Source of the DNA: a virus
Reading direction: 5' to 3' (one strand)
DNA length: 21,497 nucleotides
Virus record (IMG/VR): IMGVR_UViG_3300020470_001503
Span: 1-21,497 of that record
Part shown: one piece after another, positions 1 through 20,966 of the stretch
How the letters are laid out: each line of letters opens with the position of its first letter
Position numbering within the stretch: the first letter of the stretch is position 1
The notes under the pieces: generated by a model
Seen by the model: the letters and a program-made list of their open reading frames with translations, nothing else
Told to the model about the DNA's origin: nothing
Database searches by the model: none
Translations under genes and position numbers: made by a program

Positions 1-413
1 AAGGACAGTTTTCTGACAAGCCCAACCATTTCTGGTTGGTCTGTTTCATCGAGAGGAAGTGGAAATTCTGGGTCTTGTACGAATCGTCGTTTGGCGTGGT
101 GGTCGGCTTGTCCGTCACGATGTGTGTCGTAGTGGCCGCCTTCGAAGTATTGGGTGACTTGTACTTGTTCGGGGTAGGAGATGTCGAGCCACCATCCTGC
201 GTTTCTGTTGGCTTCATATATCAGTGACGTGGCGATTTGGAGGGTGCGGGGATCGTTACACCATGCGACTTCTGACAAACGTTTTTCGGCGTCTTCTCCC
301 ATGTGTATTCCTGGCAGGGTGGATTGGAGGTGCTGGTGGGCCACCTCTCGCAAGTAGTTGAGTTCGTGGGTTGTTAATGCTTGCGGGTAATGCCAGTAAG
401 GATTTTTATACAT
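1..413 (-). CDS. 2-oxoglutarate/Fe(II)-dependent oxygenase, prolyl-hydroxylase-like, partial (N-terminal 137 residues)
   Basis: The frame is open from an ATG on the minus strand (complement of 411-413) to the left edge, so the gene is cut by the window. The N-terminus (MYKNPYWHYPQALTTHE) resembles the start of phage P4H/PKHD-type hydroxylases. Residues 89-100 (YFEGGHYDTHRD) carry the expected core strand and the first two iron ligands of the HxD motif, His98 and Asp100. The distal His and the 2-oxoglutarate-binding Arg would lie outside the window. Family members hydroxylate prolyl, lysyl or other side chains using Fe(II), oxygen and 2-oxoglutarate; the substrate here is unknown. An AAGG ribosome-binding match lies six bases upstream of the start, inside the terminase gene. 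The start codon shares two bases with the divergent terminase start. I am confident of the family, not of the target. Confidence 0.82.
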   Translation of the reverse strand, partial: MYKNPYWHYPQALTTHELNYLREVAHQHLQSTLPGIHMGEDAEKRLSEVAWCNDPRTLQIATSLIYEANRNAGWWLDISYPEQVQVTQYFEGGHYDTHRDGQADHHAKRRFVQDPEFPLPLDETDQPEMVGLVRKLS

Positions 414-1305
414 GAGTCGCCTTGCCGAATTGAAGCAGGAAGTTGAATGGCGTCGCTGTGTTGCTGATGAAGCATATTTTTTGCGGAATTATTGGCACAT
501 TCAGCATCCTGCTCATGGAAAAATTCTTTTCGATTTAAGGGAAGCGCAGTCCCATGCGTTGAATGAGTGGCGGTTGCATCGTTATTCGTTGACGTTGAAG
601 GCTCGTCAGATTGGGTGGACGACGTTGGTGGCTGCGCACCAGTTTTGGTTGGCGTTTTTTACGCCTGACCAAAACATTATTGATCTTTCTCGTACTGAGA
701 GGGAAGCCGTCTTGCTTTTGAAGAAGACGAAATATGGGTTCCAGCATCTTCCGCGGTGGATGACGGAAAGAGGCCCGAAATCACTTGCGGATCATCAACA
801 AAGGATGCAATTTGACAATGGTTCAACGATTACTTCAATGCCTAGCGCCGCCGATCCAGCCCGAGGTGAGTCAGCCACGCTTGTGGTTGTGGATGAATGG
901 GCATTTTTGCCCAACGCTGAAGAGGCTTGGGCGTCGATAGAACCTGTCGCTGACGTTGGAGGGCGGATCATTGGGTTGAGTACAGCTCGCGGTTCGGGAA
1001 ATTTCTTTCACGAACTGTGGGTTGGTGCGAGTACAGGTGCGAACAAGTTTTCGCCCATGTTTTTTCCTTGGTCTGCGGGGGACCAGGATCGTGGTGACGC
1101 ATGGTACGAAGAGAAGAAACGGTCGATGCAGCCGTGGCAGCTTGCTCAGGAGTATCCGACGACTCCAGAAGAAGCGTTCATTAAGTCTGGGCAAGCTGTT
1201 TTTGATCTTGATGTACTCGAAGAACTGGAGCAGGAATGCCGTCGAGGAGTCGAGGGTTACCTCGACCGTCGAGGCAACGCCATCGAATTTAAGAAGGCTT
1301 CCTGA
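412..1305 (+). CDS. terL: Terminase large subunit, ATPase half
   Basis: This 297-residue protein is the packaging motor ATPase. A Walker-A-like segment lies at residues 63-70 (KARQIGWT), the adenine-binding region just before it, and Walker B at about 156-162 (TLVVVDEW, Asp161 and catalytic Glu162). The coupling motif is Ser-Thr-Ala at 190-192. The C-terminal stretch at about 240-263 (pattern MQPWQLAQEYPTTPEEAF) is typical of the end of the terminase ATPase domain. No nuclease domain is present: the frame stops at 1303-1305 and the RNase H-like part is a separate gene starting on the same A. AAGGA at 398-402 is the ribosome-binding site, nine bases before the ATG. In most tailed phages both domains sit in one chain of about 450-600 residues. 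The protein would hydrolyse ATP to push DNA through the portal. Confidence 0.9.
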   Translation: MSRLAELKQEVEWRRCVADEAYFLRNYWHIQHPAHGKILFDLREAQSHALNEWRLHRYSLTLKARQIGWTTLVAAHQFWLAFFTPDQNIIDLSRTEREAVLLLKKTKYGFQHLPRWMTERGPKSLADHQQRMQFDNGSTITSMPSAADPARGESATLVVVDEWAFLPNAEEAWASIEPVADVGGRIIGLSTARGSGNFFHELWVGASTGANKFSPMFFPWSAGDQDRGDAWYEEKKRSMQPWQLAQEYPTTPEEAFIKSGQAVFDLDVLEELEQECRRGVEGYLDRRGNAIEFKKAS

Positions 1306-1976
1306 TGTATACGCAATGGACTGCACCTGAACTGGATCATGCATATGTGATGGGAGTTGACACTGCGGAGGGGCTTGCGCATGGTGACTATTCGGTTATT
1401 CAGGTGCTTGATGTTAATACTGGGGAACAAGTGGCTATTTGGCATGGTCACATTGCTCCTGATTTGCTTGCTGAAGAGGTGTATTCGGTGGGGTTGTGGT
1501 TCAACTCAGCATTGTGCTGCGTTGAATCCAACAACCACGGATTGACAACGATCACTGAGCTTCGCCATTTGGGGTATCCGCGTTTGTATCGGCGCAGGTC
1601 GTTGAACTCTGTGTCGAACAGGATGTCTCAGGAATACGGCTGGAAGACCACCCGCACTTCCAAACCACTTTTAATCGATGACCTCTCTAGTGCGTTGCGC
1701 AACGACGAGCTAGTTATCAGAGATAAGAACACGATTGCGGAGTTGCGCACGTTTGTGCGTAACGAACGGGGCTCTATGAACGGTTCACCGTTCGATGATC
1801 GTGTTATTGCTTTGGCTTTAGCTAATCAGATGCGCAAGTTTGCTTATTCGCCCGAGTATGCGCCAGATAACAAACCTCAGTATTGGACGTTGGATTGGTT
1901 TGCGGAGATGGTGCAGAAACCGACAGTTGGGGATGGGTTCACTATTGGTCAACACACGGTGCGTGGGACACCCTGA
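1305..1976 (+). CDS. Terminase large subunit, nuclease half (RNase H-like)
   Basis: This 223-residue protein matches the C-terminal nuclease domain of large terminases. Acidic metal-binding positions are visible: Asp19 in GVDTAEG, Glu74 in CVESNN, and Asp164/Asp165 in FDDRVIALALA. The segment around 111-150 (YGWKTTRTSKPLLIDDL onward) is also characteristic. It would cut concatemeric DNA at the start and end of packaging. The ATG overlaps the stop of the ATPase gene (TGATG). AAGG at 1294-1297 lies seven bases upstream of the ATG, so re-initiation on the same message is plausible. Upstream of this ATG the frame is open only back to 1293, so a frameshifted fusion would have to occur in the last ten bases of the ATPase gene, where I see no canonical slippery heptamer. 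A one-base sequencing error cannot be excluded. Confidence 0.87.
   Translation: MYTQWTAPELDHAYVMGVDTAEGLAHGDYSVIQVLDVNTGEQVAIWHGHIAPDLLAEEVYSVGLWFNSALCCVESNNHGLTTITELRHLGYPRLYRRRSLNSVSNRMSQEYGWKTTRTSKPLLIDDLSSALRNDELVIRDKNTIAELRTFVRNERGSMNGSPFDDRVIALALANQMRKFAYSPEYAPDNKPQYWTLDWFAEMVQKPTVGDGFTIGQHTVRGTP
1964..1974 (+). repeat. TGGGACACCCT element, copy 1
   Basis: The 11-mer TGGGACACCCT ends directly at the stop codon of the terminase nuclease gene and lies 38 bases before the ATG of the next gene at 2012. An identical copy lies at 4448-4458 and a ten-base match at 21406-21415, all on the same strand. A promoter, RNA-processing signal or other leader element is possible; the function is unknown. 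Confidence 0.45.
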
Positions 1977-2298: not shown

Positions 2299-2571
2299 AT
2301 GGCCGTCCTACCAGATGGGGCGACTTTTGAAGAGTTCACCGAGTACGTCGTTGAACGGCGTGGTCAGGTTCCTCTTCTTGAACTCCAAGAACTATATGAA
2401 CGGCGTATTCGACTGAAGTCGATCAGCGTCAACCAAGGCAATGGAATCGATTCAACTTTGCCTCCTGATGAACGGGGGCTTACGAAGCGTGAACGCGAGG
2501 CAAAGGTTTTTGCTGAAGCTAAATCGCAGGGTCGAAACATAGAGAAACTTCCTGAGAAAGCGACGTTCTGA
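2299..2571 (+). CDS. Small charged protein of unknown function (90 aa)
   Basis: The ATG is two bases after the previous stop, and the gene ends by a TGATG overlap with the portal gene, so it belongs to the same message. The protein is helical and charged: an acidic N-terminal half (FEEFTEYVVERRGQVPLLEL) and a Lys/Arg/Glu-rich C-terminus (LTKREREAKVFAEAKSQG). No catalytic motif, signal peptide or membrane helix is visible. Its ribosome-binding site is weak, which fits coupling to the upstream gene. Size and position would suit a packaging or head accessory protein, possibly even a diverged small terminase, but I cannot support a specific function. Confidence 0.7.
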   Translation: MAVLPDGATFEEFTEYVVERRGQVPLLELQELYERRIRLKSISVNQGNGIDSTLPPDERGLTKREREAKVFAEAKSQGRNIEKLPEKATF

Positions 2572-4445
2572 TGGCGAGAGTGAGTAAGGCCGACAAGCTG
2601 AAAACATATAAGCAGCGGCTTGCTCGCACTCGTCGCTGGCGTTCCGATCAAGGCTACGACGACACTTGGCGTCGAATGATTGATCTTTACAGAGGGAAGC
2701 ATTGGCCCAAAGGTTCAATGAACAATCAAGATTTGATTGTTGTGAACATGGCGTTCTCGCTTATCAATGTGGTTGCCCCATCAGTTTCAGTGAATCATCC
2801 AAAAGTTTTGGTTCGTGCGAACAGCCCAGAAAACGAAGATCGTGCCGCTTTCGTTGAGGCTGTTACCAACCATTTGTGGCGTCACCATGATTTCCGTACA
2901 CCGTTTCGGCGTGCGGTTAAAGACTTCCTGATTATTGGTCATGGCTGGTTAAAAGTTGGTTGGGCGTTCAAAGAGGTCGAAGTTTCGTTGAGTGAAACTG
3001 AACGCCTCGAAATGGCTGAACGTCAGATGATGGAAGCAGACATGTTTGCTGCTGAAGCACCAGAACTTGCTGCTGATCTGCCATCTGATGAAGATATTGC
3101 AGCGATGATTCCTACGACTGACATGGCTGTCGTCGAGGACCAGCCGTTCGTAGAACGGATTTCTCCGTTCGACATTTTTGTTGACCCTGAAGCTACCTGT
3201 ATGGATGACGCTAGCTGGATGGCTCAACGCATTATTCGTCCGTTGTCTGATGTTCAAGACGACAAGCGTTATAAGCCTTCAACTCGTAAAACGGTTGCTC
3301 CTGATTCTGGAACTAACAGCGTTTACTCGGATGCTCCTCCTCAGAGAGAAGAAGCTAACGACTACACGATGACTGAAGAGCTTTGCACTGTTTGGGAGTA
3401 CTACGACATTAAGAACAACACGTTGTGTGTGTTTGCGCAGAACAGTGACGGATATTTGGTAGATCCAATGCCAATGCCGTACGCATCTGGTGTGCCGTTC
3501 GTGATGCTCCGCAACTATGACGTGCCTGACCAGTTCATGCCGATGGGTGATTTGGAGTCCATTGAGTCGATGCAATTAGAGCTTGATAAGACTCGTACCC
3601 AGTTGATGAACGACAGGAAACGTTACGCACGTAAATACCTGTATTTCGAACGGTCGTTTGATGGTGCGGGACGTGAAGCTCTTGAATCTGAAGATGATGG
3701 ACGCATGGTTCCTGTGGTCGATGAGAACAGGCCGTTGCAGGACGTGGTTCAACCTATGCCGCAGGTTCCTGTTAGTCCTGAGATCTATTCGTACTCGAAC
3801 ATTATTTCGTCTGACATTAATCAGGTGTCAGGTGTCAGCGAGTACGCACAAGGCGGTCTTCCTGAGACTCGACGCACAGCAACTGAAGCGAGCATTATTG
3901 CGGATGCGCAAAATGCGCGAGCTGCGGACAAACTGGCGATTGTTGAGATCGCTATTAGTCATGTAGCTCGTCGAGTTGTTCAGTTGTTGCAGCAGTTTAT
4001 GACTGGTGAGCAGATGGCTCGGATGACTAAAGCTGATGGTGCTGATCTTTGGATTCCGTATTCTCGTGAGGACATTACTGGCGAGTACGACTTCACTGTT
4101 GAGGCTGGGTCTACTCAGCCGATGAACGACACTGTTCGTAAGCAGCAGGCAATCAGTTTGTTGAACGCTGTTGCTCCGCTGGTGGGTCAAGTTATTGACC
4201 CTCAGCAGCTTGCTCGTCATGTTCTTCAAAGCGGGTTCGGTATTCCTGATCCCGAGAAATTTCTTATGGCTCCGCCGCAAGCTCCCGACAGTCCTGAGAA
4301 TGCGGGCATGGCAGGTGTGCCACCCGAAGCGGCTGAAGGTTTGATGCCTGCGGCGGGGCAACCAAACGCTCCGATGGGTGGCGTTCCCCCTGAAATGGTG
4401 GAACAGCTACAAAATCAGATGGGTATGACTCTGCCGTCTTCTTAA
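2571..4445 (+). CDS. Portal protein
   Basis: At 624 residues this is the expected size for a podovirus-type portal, which forms the dodecameric ring at the capsid vertex through which DNA enters and leaves. The N-terminus is basic and helical (residues 1-50). The segment at 111-132 (FRRAVKDFLIIGHGWLKVGW) is the typical portal core signature of a helix followed by a glycine turn and a beta strand. The middle part (about 330-480) holds the long helices and a DxxR/RRTATEAS-type segment usual for the crown and stem. The last 60 residues are a Pro/Gly/Met-rich tail, probably disordered. The gene lies after terminase and before scaffold and capsid, the canonical portal position. It overlaps the previous gene by one base (TGATG). 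Confidence 0.88.
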   Translation: MARVSKADKLKTYKQRLARTRRWRSDQGYDDTWRRMIDLYRGKHWPKGSMNNQDLIVVNMAFSLINVVAPSVSVNHPKVLVRANSPENEDRAAFVEAVTNHLWRHHDFRTPFRRAVKDFLIIGHGWLKVGWAFKEVEVSLSETERLEMAERQMMEADMFAAEAPELAADLPSDEDIAAMIPTTDMAVVEDQPFVERISPFDIFVDPEATCMDDASWMAQRIIRPLSDVQDDKRYKPSTRKTVAPDSGTNSVYSDAPPQREEANDYTMTEELCTVWEYYDIKNNTLCVFAQNSDGYLVDPMPMPYASGVPFVMLRNYDVPDQFMPMGDLESIESMQLELDKTRTQLMNDRKRYARKYLYFERSFDGAGREALESEDDGRMVPVVDENRPLQDVVQPMPQVPVSPEIYSYSNIISSDINQVSGVSEYAQGGLPETRRTATEASIIADAQNARAADKLAIVEIAISHVARRVVQLLQQFMTGEQMARMTKADGADLWIPYSREDITGEYDFTVEAGSTQPMNDTVRKQQAISLLNAVAPLVGQVIDPQQLARHVLQSGFGIPDPEKFLMAPPQAPDSPENAGMAGVPPEAAEGLMPAAGQPNAPMGGVPPEMVEQLQNQMGMTLPSS

Positions 4446-15896: not shown

Positions 15897-18800
15897 GTGG
15901 CGACCTCGGATGAGTTACTGAGGGCGTTAGGTCAAACTCCCGCCAATCAACAGGTAGGGAAGCCTACGAGTCGAGACAAGTTGGAGAGCGCTATTAACGC
16001 GCCTGCTCCTAGTTCTGATTTCAGTGAACGATTGGCTCGTATTCAAGCGGAGCTTGAATCGAGCAACCTATCCACGATTGATTGGACACCACCTGAGGGT
16101 GGCTGGAACCGTGTCATGGCTCGTGACGACGATTCAGGTGCGATAGGTAAGTTGTTTAAGACGTTGGCTAGACCTATTGCGTTTACTGCTTCAACAGCGA
16201 TGGAAACTGCTGATCTGGTTACTGGTGAAGGCGCAAGTCTTCGTGAGTGGTGGGATCAGTTTGCGGGTGCTGACCCTATTCATTGGGGTGATGTTCGACG
16301 CAAACACGAAGATATTTACAAGTACATGATCCCGTTTACGTTCGGGTTGTCTGCGTTACCTGCTGCGTTTGAATCGTTGGCGGATGTAACTGGGCAAGAT
16401 TGGCTTGATAGTGCAGCCGACTTTTCTGCGAACTTGATCTTTGATCCGTTGAACTTGGCTGGTGGTATCGGCAAACTTGCGTCGCTTAGAGGAGCGAAGC
16501 AAGTTGCTGCGAACATGTCGAGGGTCGCTAATGCCCGTAACACGGGCTATTTAGTTGACGGTATCCAGTACACCGATGATGTGATTGACGCTGCGAAGGT
16601 TGCTAGCGACGCAATGGTTAATGGCCGTTCGTTGTCTGCTGGTATTCGTGAGCTTCGTAAACTTGGTCCTGCTGGACAGAAATTGCTTGACGATTTTGGT
16701 TTGGATGCTGGGTTGCGGATTCGTCTTCCTGGCGGTGGCACGTTTGGTCGGATGGCTCGTTTTGATCGGATTCCTGGTGTTGCTCATGTTGTGAACAAGG
16801 CGAGAGCTTCAAACGTCAAGCTCATTGATAGAGCGGCTGCTGGTTTAACAATGAGTGCCGATGACACGACAAGGCTTGCTCAACGCATCAGAGAAGTTCG
16901 AGCGGCTGGCGGCAAGATCGCAGTCGAGGAAGGCGACAAGTTAGGTCAGCTTGCTGTAGCTGCTTCTAAAACTCCCGTCGAGGTGTTGTTGCCGAAAGGT
17001 TTACGAGCCACAGCGTTGACGTTGAACGTAATGGACGCCCCTATTAGGGGTTGGACAAAGTTCATGCGTTCACCAGGTGCAGCAGCAAATGTGGTGAGAA
17101 ATTCGCTGATTGGGTCAACGTTTAATCCTGCGCAACACATGGACCCTTTCTTAACGCATCCTGATCCTGCTGTTTCTGCTGCGTTCCACAGGATTCACAC
17201 TGACACTCGGGGTCCAACTTGGATTTCGAGAATGTTCCAAGAGGACATTGCTAATAACACTCGGGATGCAGTGAACAGGGCTTTGTTGCACAAGATTTCG
17301 ATGGAAGATTTGCATGAGCTTGCAAGTTTCCAAAACCTTGAAGACGTTCTTGTTGATGGTGTGTTGCATCCCAACATGCCTGAATCGCTGAAGGCTTTAA
17401 GTGATGAAGAGTTAGTGATTTTGCATCAGAAAGCGACTGCTACCGCTAACGCTTCGATGTCAACACAACTTCCTCATAGGTCTGGTTCGTTCGCTGATGG
17501 CGTTAATGATGTTCTGGATACCGAAGGGGGTTACGTTCCAAGAAACGTAACCGCTGAAGGAAGAGAACTGCTGGGGTTTGATGACGGTATTCCGCTTGTT
17601 GACGAGTGGAGACAGTTAGCGCCTGAGGGTCGTCGTAGCGCAGCGAACTTGATGGATCGGAAGATCAGAGTTGGGCAACCTGTCGATGTGACGGTCCCGC
17701 AGGGCTACAAAGTTCCAGAGGGTGTTACTCGTCGGGTTGGTTTAGATCGTCAACAAGGCAGAGTCAGGCTGCGTTTAGTTGACGAAGTTCAAGACCCAAG
17801 AGTTGTTGGTAAATCAGTTGCTCGACAACTAAATGAAGCAGCAGAAGAGTTGGGTCTGCCTCAGATTTATGACGCTAACTATGGTGAAGCATGGATTAGG
17901 TATGGCAACACTGTTGGCACTGACTTCCGTATGCGCCTCATTGAGAATGTGTTTGCAAGGTATGGGGTGCTGGTCGATTTAGAAGACTTGGGGTTACACA
18001 ATTCTTTAGAAACTCTGTTCGCTCAAACTGACAAGGCTTCAAGACTCGTAACGTCTATTAACAAAGCTAGAGCTAACGCTTCGAAGTTGCGGCAAGGAGC
18101 GATTGACGCTGGTGTGGCTCGACGTAAGGCGTATCAGTCTGCGTCGAGGACCAAGATCTTAGGTACGACTCGACCTACCAATGTTGGTAGCGACGAGATT
18201 CTGCAAGACGCACTCAAATTTGAGGATGCGTTTGATGTCACAAACAGTCATCTGGTTGAGGCATCCATTATTGCTAACGAAATAGATGTTGTGGTTGCTC
18301 GACTTGATGAGCTTGCACGCACTCGACCCAGGAACGGGTCGATTCGCAGCAAAGAATACGAAGACACTGTGCAGCGGTTAATGGAGCTAACAGCTCGCGC
18401 TGAACAAATTCGACTTCAGCAGGAAGCCACTGATGGTGTTGTGGACATTCTGAAAAGAATGATCGACATTGAAGAAACTGGGTTGCCAGCAGGTGAGCCA
18501 CCTGAAGCTCGTGTTCTTGCTAGCGCTTTCAGAGGTGGCCGTGACAAAGGTCAACCTGTCGCTATGTATGACGAAGTTCGGGATGAGCTTGCGGATGTAC
18601 TCGACTTTATTGAAAGCGATGTCATTCCTGGTATCGAGCGAATTGTTGCTCGGTATGCAAACGAGTCACCTGAGATTAAACAGTTGCAGGAACTCGTGAA
18701 AGCTGCTCGGGGTACGTTGCGTGGTTCGAAGTCCACGTTGAATACGAATCGGGCTGCGTCGAAACGTATCGAAGAGTTCGATAAGACAATTAAGAAATTT

Positions 18801-20966
18801 AAGGAAGCTGACGAAGCTGTTGGTGGTCACGAGCAGCGAGTACAGACTGCTAATCCTTCTGAGCCTGCTCAACAGTTACAAGAGGTTGCTGAGTCTTTGG
18901 AACGGCAAACTCGTTGGGTTGAGCAACAGTATGCGGCGTTAGCTGCTGACGAGGATTTGGTTCGCGCTGGGCAGGTGCTTCCCGAAGAAGCACTGCCAGG
19001 TGTTCGTGAGGGGGCAAGAGTTGTTCCTCGTGAGGGTGACCGTATTGGGTTAGAAGGACCAGATGTTGTTCTGACTGAAGAAGAGGCTTTGCGGAGAGTT
19101 AAAACGGTTTTGGGTGAGCAGCGTTCGGTTGCGTTGCAGAACTTTGCTGAAGCGAACGCTCAGTCGCAAAGACTGTTTAACGATTTGCAGGAGCGGGTCG
19201 CTCGGTTTGATAGAGCGATAGCTGCTGGTGATCGTGCGGATGCGATCTATCAGCGGAACATAATTAGGGCTGGTCACGCTGAAGATGCTGCAAACAAAAT
19301 GGAATTTGAGCAGCTTCAACCGATCTATGAAGAGTTCGAACGTTTGCTGCGGATGGCTACCGTTCGGTTGAGTCGGGCTCAAAGTCTTCGAGGGCAAGAA
19401 GGCTTAGGTGACGCTGCTGGTCTTGACCGCATTGTCGAACAGCTGGATGAACTGATTGAACGGTTCCGAGTACATGAGGCTCAACCTATGAGTCTTTCTA
19501 AAGAGAATCTGGACACAGCAAAACAGATCCTTGCGGAAGACATGCAGCATTGGGGGCCGTGGACCGTTTTGGGTAATGAGCAAACCACTGCTGTTGAAGT
19601 AGTCAAACTCCTTGATGGTTACGGCAAAGCAATGGACACCGTAGCGTTGAAGGGTTTCGGAAAGAAGTACAACCGTTTACATAATCTCATTAAGTCTCAT
19701 CAGTTGACCTCGTTTGGTTTCGTTTCAAGAAACGTGATGGGTGCGATGATGGCGATGTGGTTGGAGGGTGTGCCTCCAACCATGCTGTTCCGCACTAGAA
19801 GTTTGATGAACAAAGCAGCGAAGATCGGTGAGGGTGATCTGGTTCGAGGGATTGACACCATTCTTGCTGACCCTGCAAGCAAATTGGCTCAGAACAAAGA
19901 GTTCGGATATATGAAGACTCTCATCGAGATGGGTGTTCTTCGCTCTGGTCAAGGTGCAACGTCGCTCGATACGAAAGTTGCGGTAAGTCTGAACCGAACT
20001 GCACGAATTTTGAAGAACCGTAATCCTCGGTCAGCACGTAAAGGGGAATACAGTCGAGTTGAGTTTGCGCCTTGGCGGTCTGACAACATTTTGTCGAAGA
20101 ACATTCAGACGTTGAACAACAACTGGGAAGACGCAATCAGGTTGTCTACTGGAATGCATTTCATGTCAATGGGTGCTGACGCAGGCACAGCGTTGAATGC
20201 GATAGCTCGAAGCCAGTTCGATTATGGGGAACTCACCAGAAACGAACGGGCCGTCAAAATGGTTATCCCGTTCTACACATGGACAAGGAAGAACATTCCG
20301 TATCAGTTCAGTCAGCTTTGGCGACAGCCAGGAAAATACAATTCGCTGTACTCGGCCAAACGAGTTCTTGAAGACAGATCCGAAGAAGAGAACTGGGTGC
20401 CTTCATATTTCATGGCTCCGTTCGGAGTGAGATTGCCGTTCGCTCCTGGGGGAAACAAAATGTATTTTGTTCCCGATCTTCCGTTCGTTGACTTGTTTAA
20501 GTTCCGCAGCGACGACGGCAACTTTGGTGTTGATCTTGGTCGTCAAGTGTTGACGGAAACGACACCGATCTTGAAAGCTCCGTTGGAGTTGATTTCGGGT
20601 AAGCAGTTCTTTAAGGGTCTTCCGATTTCTGACAAGTACGAGAAGGTGCCGTACAACTGGGCAAACATTCCTGGGTTGAGCCAAGCGTTGACTTCGTTTG
20701 GTTTGTTGAAGAACGGGAAGATGCGCAGACATAACCAGTATGTGATTGAGCAGTTCGTTCCGTTCTACAGCAGGTTCATTCGTATGGCTGGGGACGATAA
20801 ACGGCATGAGGGTTACCGTCAGCTTCAGAACAACTTGTCGTTCTGGCTTGGTTTGCCGTTGAAGTTCAACACGACGGATATGCAGCGGTCTGCGATTATG
20901 CAGTATCAGCGTGAACTGGCTGCGGAGCGTCGGGACTTTAGGGATTTACGAAATCCGAATCGGTAA
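15897..20966 (+). CDS. Giant internal virion / ejection-type protein (1689 aa)
   Basis: This single gene fills almost a quarter of the window. Residues 80-210 contain helices with a DPLNLAGGIGKL motif often seen in large phage virion proteins. A middle region (about 690-1220) is very rich in Glu, Gln, Arg and Ala and probably forms long coiled coils. A hydrophobic helix lies near 1275-1292 (NVMGAMMAMWLEGV). A conserved-looking segment at 1441-1475 (FDYGELTRNERAVKMVIPFY, then TWTRKNIPYQ) recalls the tail end of large polyvalent or internal proteins in other phages. I see no lytic transglycosylase or peptidase site. GTG at 15897 follows GAGG at 15886-15889. Position after two smaller genes suggests a T7 gp16-like DNA-ejection role; a minor capsid or polyvalent protein is the alternative. 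Confidence 0.72.
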   Translation: MATSDELLRALGQTPANQQVGKPTSRDKLESAINAPAPSSDFSERLARIQAELESSNLSTIDWTPPEGGWNRVMARDDDSGAIGKLFKTLARPIAFTASTAMETADLVTGEGASLREWWDQFAGADPIHWGDVRRKHEDIYKYMIPFTFGLSALPAAFESLADVTGQDWLDSAADFSANLIFDPLNLAGGIGKLASLRGAKQVAANMSRVANARNTGYLVDGIQYTDDVIDAAKVASDAMVNGRSLSAGIRELRKLGPAGQKLLDDFGLDAGLRIRLPGGGTFGRMARFDRIPGVAHVVNKARASNVKLIDRAAAGLTMSADDTTRLAQRIREVRAAGGKIAVEEGDKLGQLAVAASKTPVEVLLPKGLRATALTLNVMDAPIRGWTKFMRSPGAAANVVRNSLIGSTFNPAQHMDPFLTHPDPAVSAAFHRIHTDTRGPTWISRMFQEDIANNTRDAVNRALLHKISMEDLHELASFQNLEDVLVDGVLHPNMPESLKALSDEELVILHQKATATANASMSTQLPHRSGSFADGVNDVLDTEGGYVPRNVTAEGRELLGFDDGIPLVDEWRQLAPEGRRSAANLMDRKIRVGQPVDVTVPQGYKVPEGVTRRVGLDRQQGRVRLRLVDEVQDPRVVGKSVARQLNEAAEELGLPQIYDANYGEAWIRYGNTVGTDFRMRLIENVFARYGVLVDLEDLGLHNSLETLFAQTDKASRLVTSINKARANASKLRQGAIDAGVARRKAYQSASRTKILGTTRPTNVGSDEILQDALKFEDAFDVTNSHLVEASIIANEIDVVVARLDELARTRPRNGSIRSKEYEDTVQRLMELTARAEQIRLQQEATDGVVDILKRMIDIEETGLPAGEPPEARVLASAFRGGRDKGQPVAMYDEVRDELADVLDFIESDVIPGIERIVARYANESPEIKQLQELVKAARGTLRGSKSTLNTNRAASKRIEEFDKTIKKFKEADEAVGGHEQRVQTANPSEPAQQLQEVAESLERQTRWVEQQYAALAADEDLVRAGQVLPEEALPGVREGARVVPREGDRIGLEGPDVVLTEEEALRRVKTVLGEQRSVALQNFAEANAQSQRLFNDLQERVARFDRAIAAGDRADAIYQRNIIRAGHAEDAANKMEFEQLQPIYEEFERLLRMATVRLSRAQSLRGQEGLGDAAGLDRIVEQLDELIERFRVHEAQPMSLSKENLDTAKQILAEDMQHWGPWTVLGNEQTTAVEVVKLLDGYGKAMDTVALKGFGKKYNRLHNLIKSHQLTSFGFVSRNVMGAMMAMWLEGVPPTMLFRTRSLMNKAAKIGEGDLVRGIDTILADPASKLAQNKEFGYMKTLIEMGVLRSGQGATSLDTKVAVSLNRTARILKNRNPRSARKGEYSRVEFAPWRSDNILSKNIQTLNNNWEDAIRLSTGMHFMSMGADAGTALNAIARSQFDYGELTRNERAVKMVIPFYTWTRKNIPYQFSQLWRQPGKYNSLYSAKRVLEDRSEEENWVPSYFMAPFGVRLPFAPGGNKMYFVPDLPFVDLFKFRSDDGNFGVDLGRQVLTETTPILKAPLELISGKQFFKGLPISDKYEKVPYNWANIPGLSQALTSFGLLKNGKMRRHNQYVIEQFVPFYSRFIRMAGDDKRHEGYRQLQNNLSFWLGLPLKFNTTDMQRSAIMQYQRELAAERRDFRDLRNPNR

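Follow-up and report, generated by a model that had tools for sequence, protein, structure and literature searches.

Tailed phages are described as universally having a two-domain large terminase (TerL), which serves as a phylogenetic marker. In T4, translocation is reported to need a hinge within one chain (PMC9958956). Precedents for a split TerL exist. The authors of the Parabacteroides phage phiPDS1 genome reported TerL domains split in two CDS and suspected a code or assembly issue (PMC10773633). The other precedents are terL genes split by introns or inteins, and in some Jug phages the splicing was shown by RNA reads (PMC12363816). Searches of the open-access literature found no description of the split clade reported here, and phiPDS1 was the one case found there in which two CDS encode the TerL domains; a prior description outside that literature is possible. 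The "two separate genes" of Arthrobacter cluster AN were rejected as a terminase precedent because the phrase concerns lysis genes.

Here we analyzed a viral DNA stretch of 21,497 nt (IMG/VR record IMGVR_UViG_3300020470_001503; hereafter, the window) in which the two TerL domains are encoded by separate, overlapping genes.

Gene pair and terminase motifs

The features of the pair are as follows.

412–1305, + strand: TerL ATPase half, 297 aa, ATG start (Pfam PF03237 and PHROG TerL matches)
535–549, + strand: Q motif (Q46), ATPase ORF
595–624, + strand: deviant Walker A LKARQIGWTT, ATPase ORF
880–897, + strand: Walker B LVVVDE, residues 157–162, ATPase ORF
976–1011, + strand: motif III LSTARGSGNFFH, ATPase ORF
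1219–1302, + strand: ATPase C-terminal tail, residues 270–297, ending ..AIEFKKAS (alignment with single-chain linkers)
1291–1297, + strand: AAGAAGG, weak putative ribosome-binding site of the nuclease gene (sequence; SD enrichment at homologous starts)
1303–1307, + strand: TGATG stop/start overlap of the ATPase and nuclease genes, one base shared (sequence)
1305–1976, + strand: TerL nuclease half, RNase H-like, 223 aa, ATG start (Pfam PF17289)
1305–1343, + strand: nuclease N-terminal strand MYTQWTAPELDHA (alignment; LEVWExP in most relatives)
1359–1361, + strand: acidic D19, nuclease ORF
1524–1526, + strand: acidic E74, nuclease ORF
1794–1799, + strand: acidic D164/D165, nuclease ORF
2571–4445, + strand: portal gene (Pfam SU10_portal, P22_portal), with a TGATG overlap with the gene upstream

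The coordinates of both reading frames, the TGATG overlap, and the AAGG at 1294–1297, 7 nt 5′ of the nuclease ATG, are as given in the original prediction. The ATPase ORF matched Pfam Terminase_6N (PF03237) with 34.9 bits (cut-off 22), and the nuclease ORF matched Terminase_6C (PF17289) with 23.3 bits (cut-off 22.6) and also PHROG terminase families. Against the PDB, the ATPase half matched T4 gp17 (E = 5e-26) and the nuclease half matched the RB49 and T4 gp17 nucleases (E = 6e-9 to 5e-7), so that, judged by sequence only, the gp17 ATPase and nuclease of T4 and RB49 are the solved structures closest to the pair.

The original prediction had assigned Walker A, Walker B, and the coupling motif to the first frame and the RNase H-like acidic residues to the second. 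Walker B and motif III are both in the ATPase ORF, and D19, E74, and D164/D165 are in the nuclease ORF, where the four residues were invariant in a 12-member alignment; in alignments of the clade, the catalytic residues were invariant in the ATPase as well as the nuclease half. Walker A is also located in the first frame, and only its nature had to be corrected, since the motif is deviant and has no P-loop lysine. A Trp occupied the position of this lysine in 98 of the 98 split members examined, in which an invariant Lys63 stands six residues upstream of the Trp; single-chain relatives had Phe or other residues at the lysine position. This arrangement resembles that of lambda gpA. In HK97 TerL, too, an upstream lysine is critical, but at a different distance (PMC9410871). 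The canonical Walker A is absent as judged from the alignments, and this deviation alone is no ground for exclusion from TerL. By its domains and motifs, the gene pair is a T4 gp17-type large terminase, for which ATP-driven DNA packaging and headful cutting are predicted.

Genome context

Downstream of the TerL pair are genes for the portal, scaffold, and major capsid proteins (Pfam/PHROG). Divergent to the ATPase gene, a minus-strand gene at 3–413 is cut by the window edge; its full-length relatives are 2OG-Fe(II) oxygenases (PF13640, phrog_61), which in two relatives lie between a TerS-like gene and TerL (L050:4385–4999 and L054:4388–4996). This TerS-like gene, a conserved gene of ~150 aa with weak TerS PHROG matches, is a candidate small terminase (L050:3142–3594, L054:3500–3946, and L061:1281–1724); it is upstream of the oxygenase gene and would fall outside the window. 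Given its presence upstream in relatives, the motor seems otherwise ordinary. At 15897–20966, the window encodes a 1689-aa protein, which had no Pfam or PHROG match and is probably a large protein of the virion or one that is ejected.

Split across the clade

IMG/VR was scanned with each half, a nuclease alignment, and a mixed alignment, and GTDB was scanned once. Loci were sorted by ORF structure and counted only where both domains were in view. Each scan covered its best 80 matches, a depth at which single-chain members of low frequency may escape notice. Within this depth, the junction was readable in 231 related loci, and every one of them was split, with 156 distinct junctions; the split loci comprised 154 of L001–L157, 74 of L190–L265, and both loci from metagenome-assembled genomes (MAGs). 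The split is not due to chance, because the same split occurs in 231 loci. A search for a single-chain member of the clade found none among the best 80 matches per scan, and the 129 relatives outside the clade with both domains in view, taken from the same best 80 matches, were all single-chain. Close relatives with an uninterrupted frame, which the original prediction had named as its refutation, did not appear among these matches; uninterrupted frames were seen only outside the clade.

In both the ATPase and the nuclease tree (127 dereplicated rows), the split group was on one branch, requiring one change, with support 100. The best explanation of these phylogenies is that the ancestor of a large phage clade underwent one split of its originally single terL gene.

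The two MAG contigs with a split terminase, L266 and L267, were binned in Acidimicrobiaceae TMED189 and Euryarchaeota SAT11, which is either a host clue or mis-binning. The bins were not accepted as a host assignment because they may be mis-binned.

Position of the cut

The alignment with single-chain relatives confirmed that the break lies in the inter-domain linker. A single-chain linker reads ..GYLHKGMGKGVYEFREDGGELAVWEFPE..YVIGADVAEGL, and one from the split clade reads ..GYLHRNGSAIEFRT before the cut and MSFEVWEPPESRSAYVMGVDTAEGL after it; the cut aligns with the Asp-Gly-Gly turn (DGG) of the single-chain linkers. Linker length was 44–46 residues in most split members and 50 in one subclade, and 44–48 residues in nearly all single chains. 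In the aligned window, the tail at 1219–1302, with its conserved (V/I)EF(R/K) strand, is identified as the first part of the former linker, and the nuclease strand at 1305–1343 as the second.

AlphaFold2 (AF2) models were made for a single chain (L343) and for L044, the one junction at which the two genes are in frame, read through its TAG. The L343 model has a strand YEFRE, a turn DGGE, and a strand LAV. The L044 model is a confident two-domain TerL (pLDDT 90.9, pTM 0.81) whose top PDB match was T4 gp17 3cpe; each domain matches, the rmsd over both domains is 14.7, and the domain arrangement differs from that of 3cpe. It has a single continuous inter-domain strand at 291–301, which is suggestive only, as the chain modeled was an artificial read-through product. 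A simple broken beta-hairpin at the cut is therefore not firm, since L343 has a turn and L044 one continuous strand. The claim is limited to a cut that falls within the linker sheet, where single chains have DGG.

Asp-Gly was written GATGG, which contains an out-of-frame ATG, in 50 of the 71 single-chain sequences with a DG turn. We hypothesize that a small indel at GATGG could have made the two-gene form in few steps.

Translation of the nuclease gene

Stop and start overlapped or abutted in 150 of the 156 distinct junctions. The overlap was NTGA in 85, a 20-nt overlap (ATG..TGA) in the other frame in 57, and TGATG or TAATG in seven; one junction (L044) was TAGATG, in frame, and a complete gene lay between the ATPase and nuclease genes in the remaining six. 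The TGATG form of the window was also found in L001, L002/L081, and L082, and the other overlaps elsewhere in the clade. TGATG or TAATG also joins other gene pairs of the window genome, for example at 2571, 8858, and 10788.

SD-like 4-mers were present 5′ of 73% of the nuclease starts versus 12.7% of the positions of the same phase within the ATPase genes, and the anti-SD duplex energy was −5.2 at the nuclease starts versus −2.6 in the background; the sequences are related and not independent, so p-values overstate the evidence, and the effect is large. In the dereplicated set, 36 of 47 nuclease starts had SD-like 4-mers (background, 13.8%). The Glu codon containing the GGAG of GTGGAGTTT had a GAG ratio of 121:26, compared with 1337:1311 for other Glu codons. 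The window's own SD is weak (AAGAAGG).

The sequences establish two genes throughout the clade, the nuclease gene having a start codon of its own and, in most members, a ribosome-binding site. From these junction sequences, the production of two polypeptides via coupled re-initiation is well supported. The overlapping starts and ribosome-binding sites favor the preference, already expressed in the original prediction, for a natural two-gene split with re-initiation over an indel or a frameshift.

Proposed assembly of the motor and alternative readings

We consider it highly probable that this is a T4 gp17-type TerL that was split once in its linker, is produced by coupled re-initiation, and is reassembled non-covalently into a motor. 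Ribosomes finishing the ATPase gene would re-initiate at the overlapping start and translate the nuclease, which would give roughly equal amounts of both proteins. The two would then join non-covalently, with the ATPase lid and VEFR tail strand against the nuclease LEVW strand in the linker sheet, in addition to the domain interface, and the joined halves would form a portal-docked ring that translocates and cuts DNA. We infer, then, that the halves come together again at the broken linker to form a motor. This step is the chief uncertainty, because the T4 domains, when separated, are reported to keep their activities and lose translocation if the hinge is absent (PMC9958956); a non-covalent motor is therefore not guaranteed to work.

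A rival reading is a motor that is physically and functionally uncoupled, in which an ATPase-only ring translocates and a separate nuclease is recruited transiently for the cuts at the start and end. Such a motor would agree with two independent proteins, with other genes sitting between the halves without fusing them, and with T4 nuclease-active-site mutants that still package pre-cut linear DNA (PMC9958956). However, the linker strands at both new ends, which flank the cut (VEFR and LEVW), are conserved, with the E of VEF kept in 100% and the W of LEVW in 93%, and the linker length is kept. The genes are also adjacent and overlapping in nearly all loci, and the T4 nuclease domain is required for translocation (PMC9958956). 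We regard the uncoupled motor as unlikely; if true, it would contradict the view from T4, by which translocation depends on having the two domains in a single chain.

Programmed frameshifting or stop readthrough, yielding one fused chain, is very unlikely. In its favor, the overlap of the two frames is a few bases long, an ATG follows the in-frame TAG in L044, and the read-through chain of L044 folds well in AF2. Against this, the relative frame of the nuclease gene varied (+2 in 92 junctions, +1 in 57, and 0 in one), a canonical in-phase X_XXY_YYZ slippery heptamer occurred in only two of 150 junctions, and the nuclease starts have ribosome-binding sites. In the window, the stretch shared by the two frames is only ~10 nt, and no slippery site was found in it. 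Whole genes also lie between the halves in some relatives:

L020:4177–4449, ferredoxin-like insert (Pfam Fer4_15), between the TerL halves
L040:1112–1393, ferredoxin-like insert (Pfam Fer4_15), between the TerL halves
L024:2626–3459, PAPS-reductase-like insert (phrog_424), between the TerL halves
L057:5873–6721, PAPS-reductase-like insert (phrog_424), between the TerL halves

These four have their own starts and stops, with ATGA joins to the ATPase gene and a short overlap to the nuclease gene. Two further inserts are known from spacing alone, which in L148 is that of the ferredoxin-like loci and in L133 that of the PAPS-reductase-like loci. Such changes of frame and overlap, like genes between the halves, would destroy a recoding device but not independent initiation; the variable frame, the two heptamers in 150 junctions, and the intervening genes rule out frameshifting as a clade-wide mechanism. 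An extra, rare frameshift or readthrough product may accompany the two chains, for example at the in-frame TAG of L044.

As a separate observation, the split junction is a landing site for cargo genes (ferredoxin-like and PAPS-reductase-like).

A sequencing or assembly indel that broke one gene has a negligible probability: one base would restore the window frame, but the 156 distinct split junctions in 231 loci come from many assemblies, and this, with no single-chain clade member among the best 80 matches per scan, refutes it. Just as improbable is a self-splicing intron or intein between the halves, since, although such terL interruptions are known (PMC12363816, PMC3322345), the gap is zero or negative in most loci, which leaves no sequence to be spliced out, the inserts are complete ferredoxin- or PAPS-reductase-like genes, and an Rfam search of the window and the six loci with an inserted gene matched no intron.

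Comparison with known terminases

In the Jug phages (PMC12363816) and Campylobacter phage IBB_35 (PMC3322345), terL is also in several pieces, but there group I introns or inteins separate them, which is not the case here. In phiPDS1 (MN929097, L387), as here, the TerL domains are in two CDS (23502–24515 and 24608–25054), with a 92-nt gap instead of the overlap of this clade; the likeness concerns the description and the CDS layout only. No Rfam intron was found in its terL (L387:23502–25054), and its two-CDS TerL may stem from a separate fission event. Vibrio phages douglas 12A4 and 252E42.2 and MW202692, which matched the nuclease, were rejected as split cases because all are single-chain.

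The nearest annotated phage is the uncultured podovirus MW202803 (ct52p938), with 53% identity in the ATPase, 49% in the nuclease, and 43% in the portal. Its TerL is one uninterrupted chain of 560 aa, with a linker about as long as in the split clade. L159 and L307–L386 are also single chains, and at the site of the split clade's stop and start most of them have a DGG-type turn. The split may explain half-terminases in virome gene calls and marker-gene surveys.

The clade shares with T4 gp17 (Terminase_6N and Terminase_6C; PDB 3CPE) the same domains, order, motifs, and fold, with portal and scaffold genes downstream. It differs in having two polypeptides where T4 has one, and in its Walker A, which has Trp in place of Lys and a Lys further upstream. 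The hinge that T4 is reported to need for packaging is cut in a whole clade, which offers a natural system in which to ask whether ATPase and nuclease have to be linked covalently and how translocation is coordinated with cutting.
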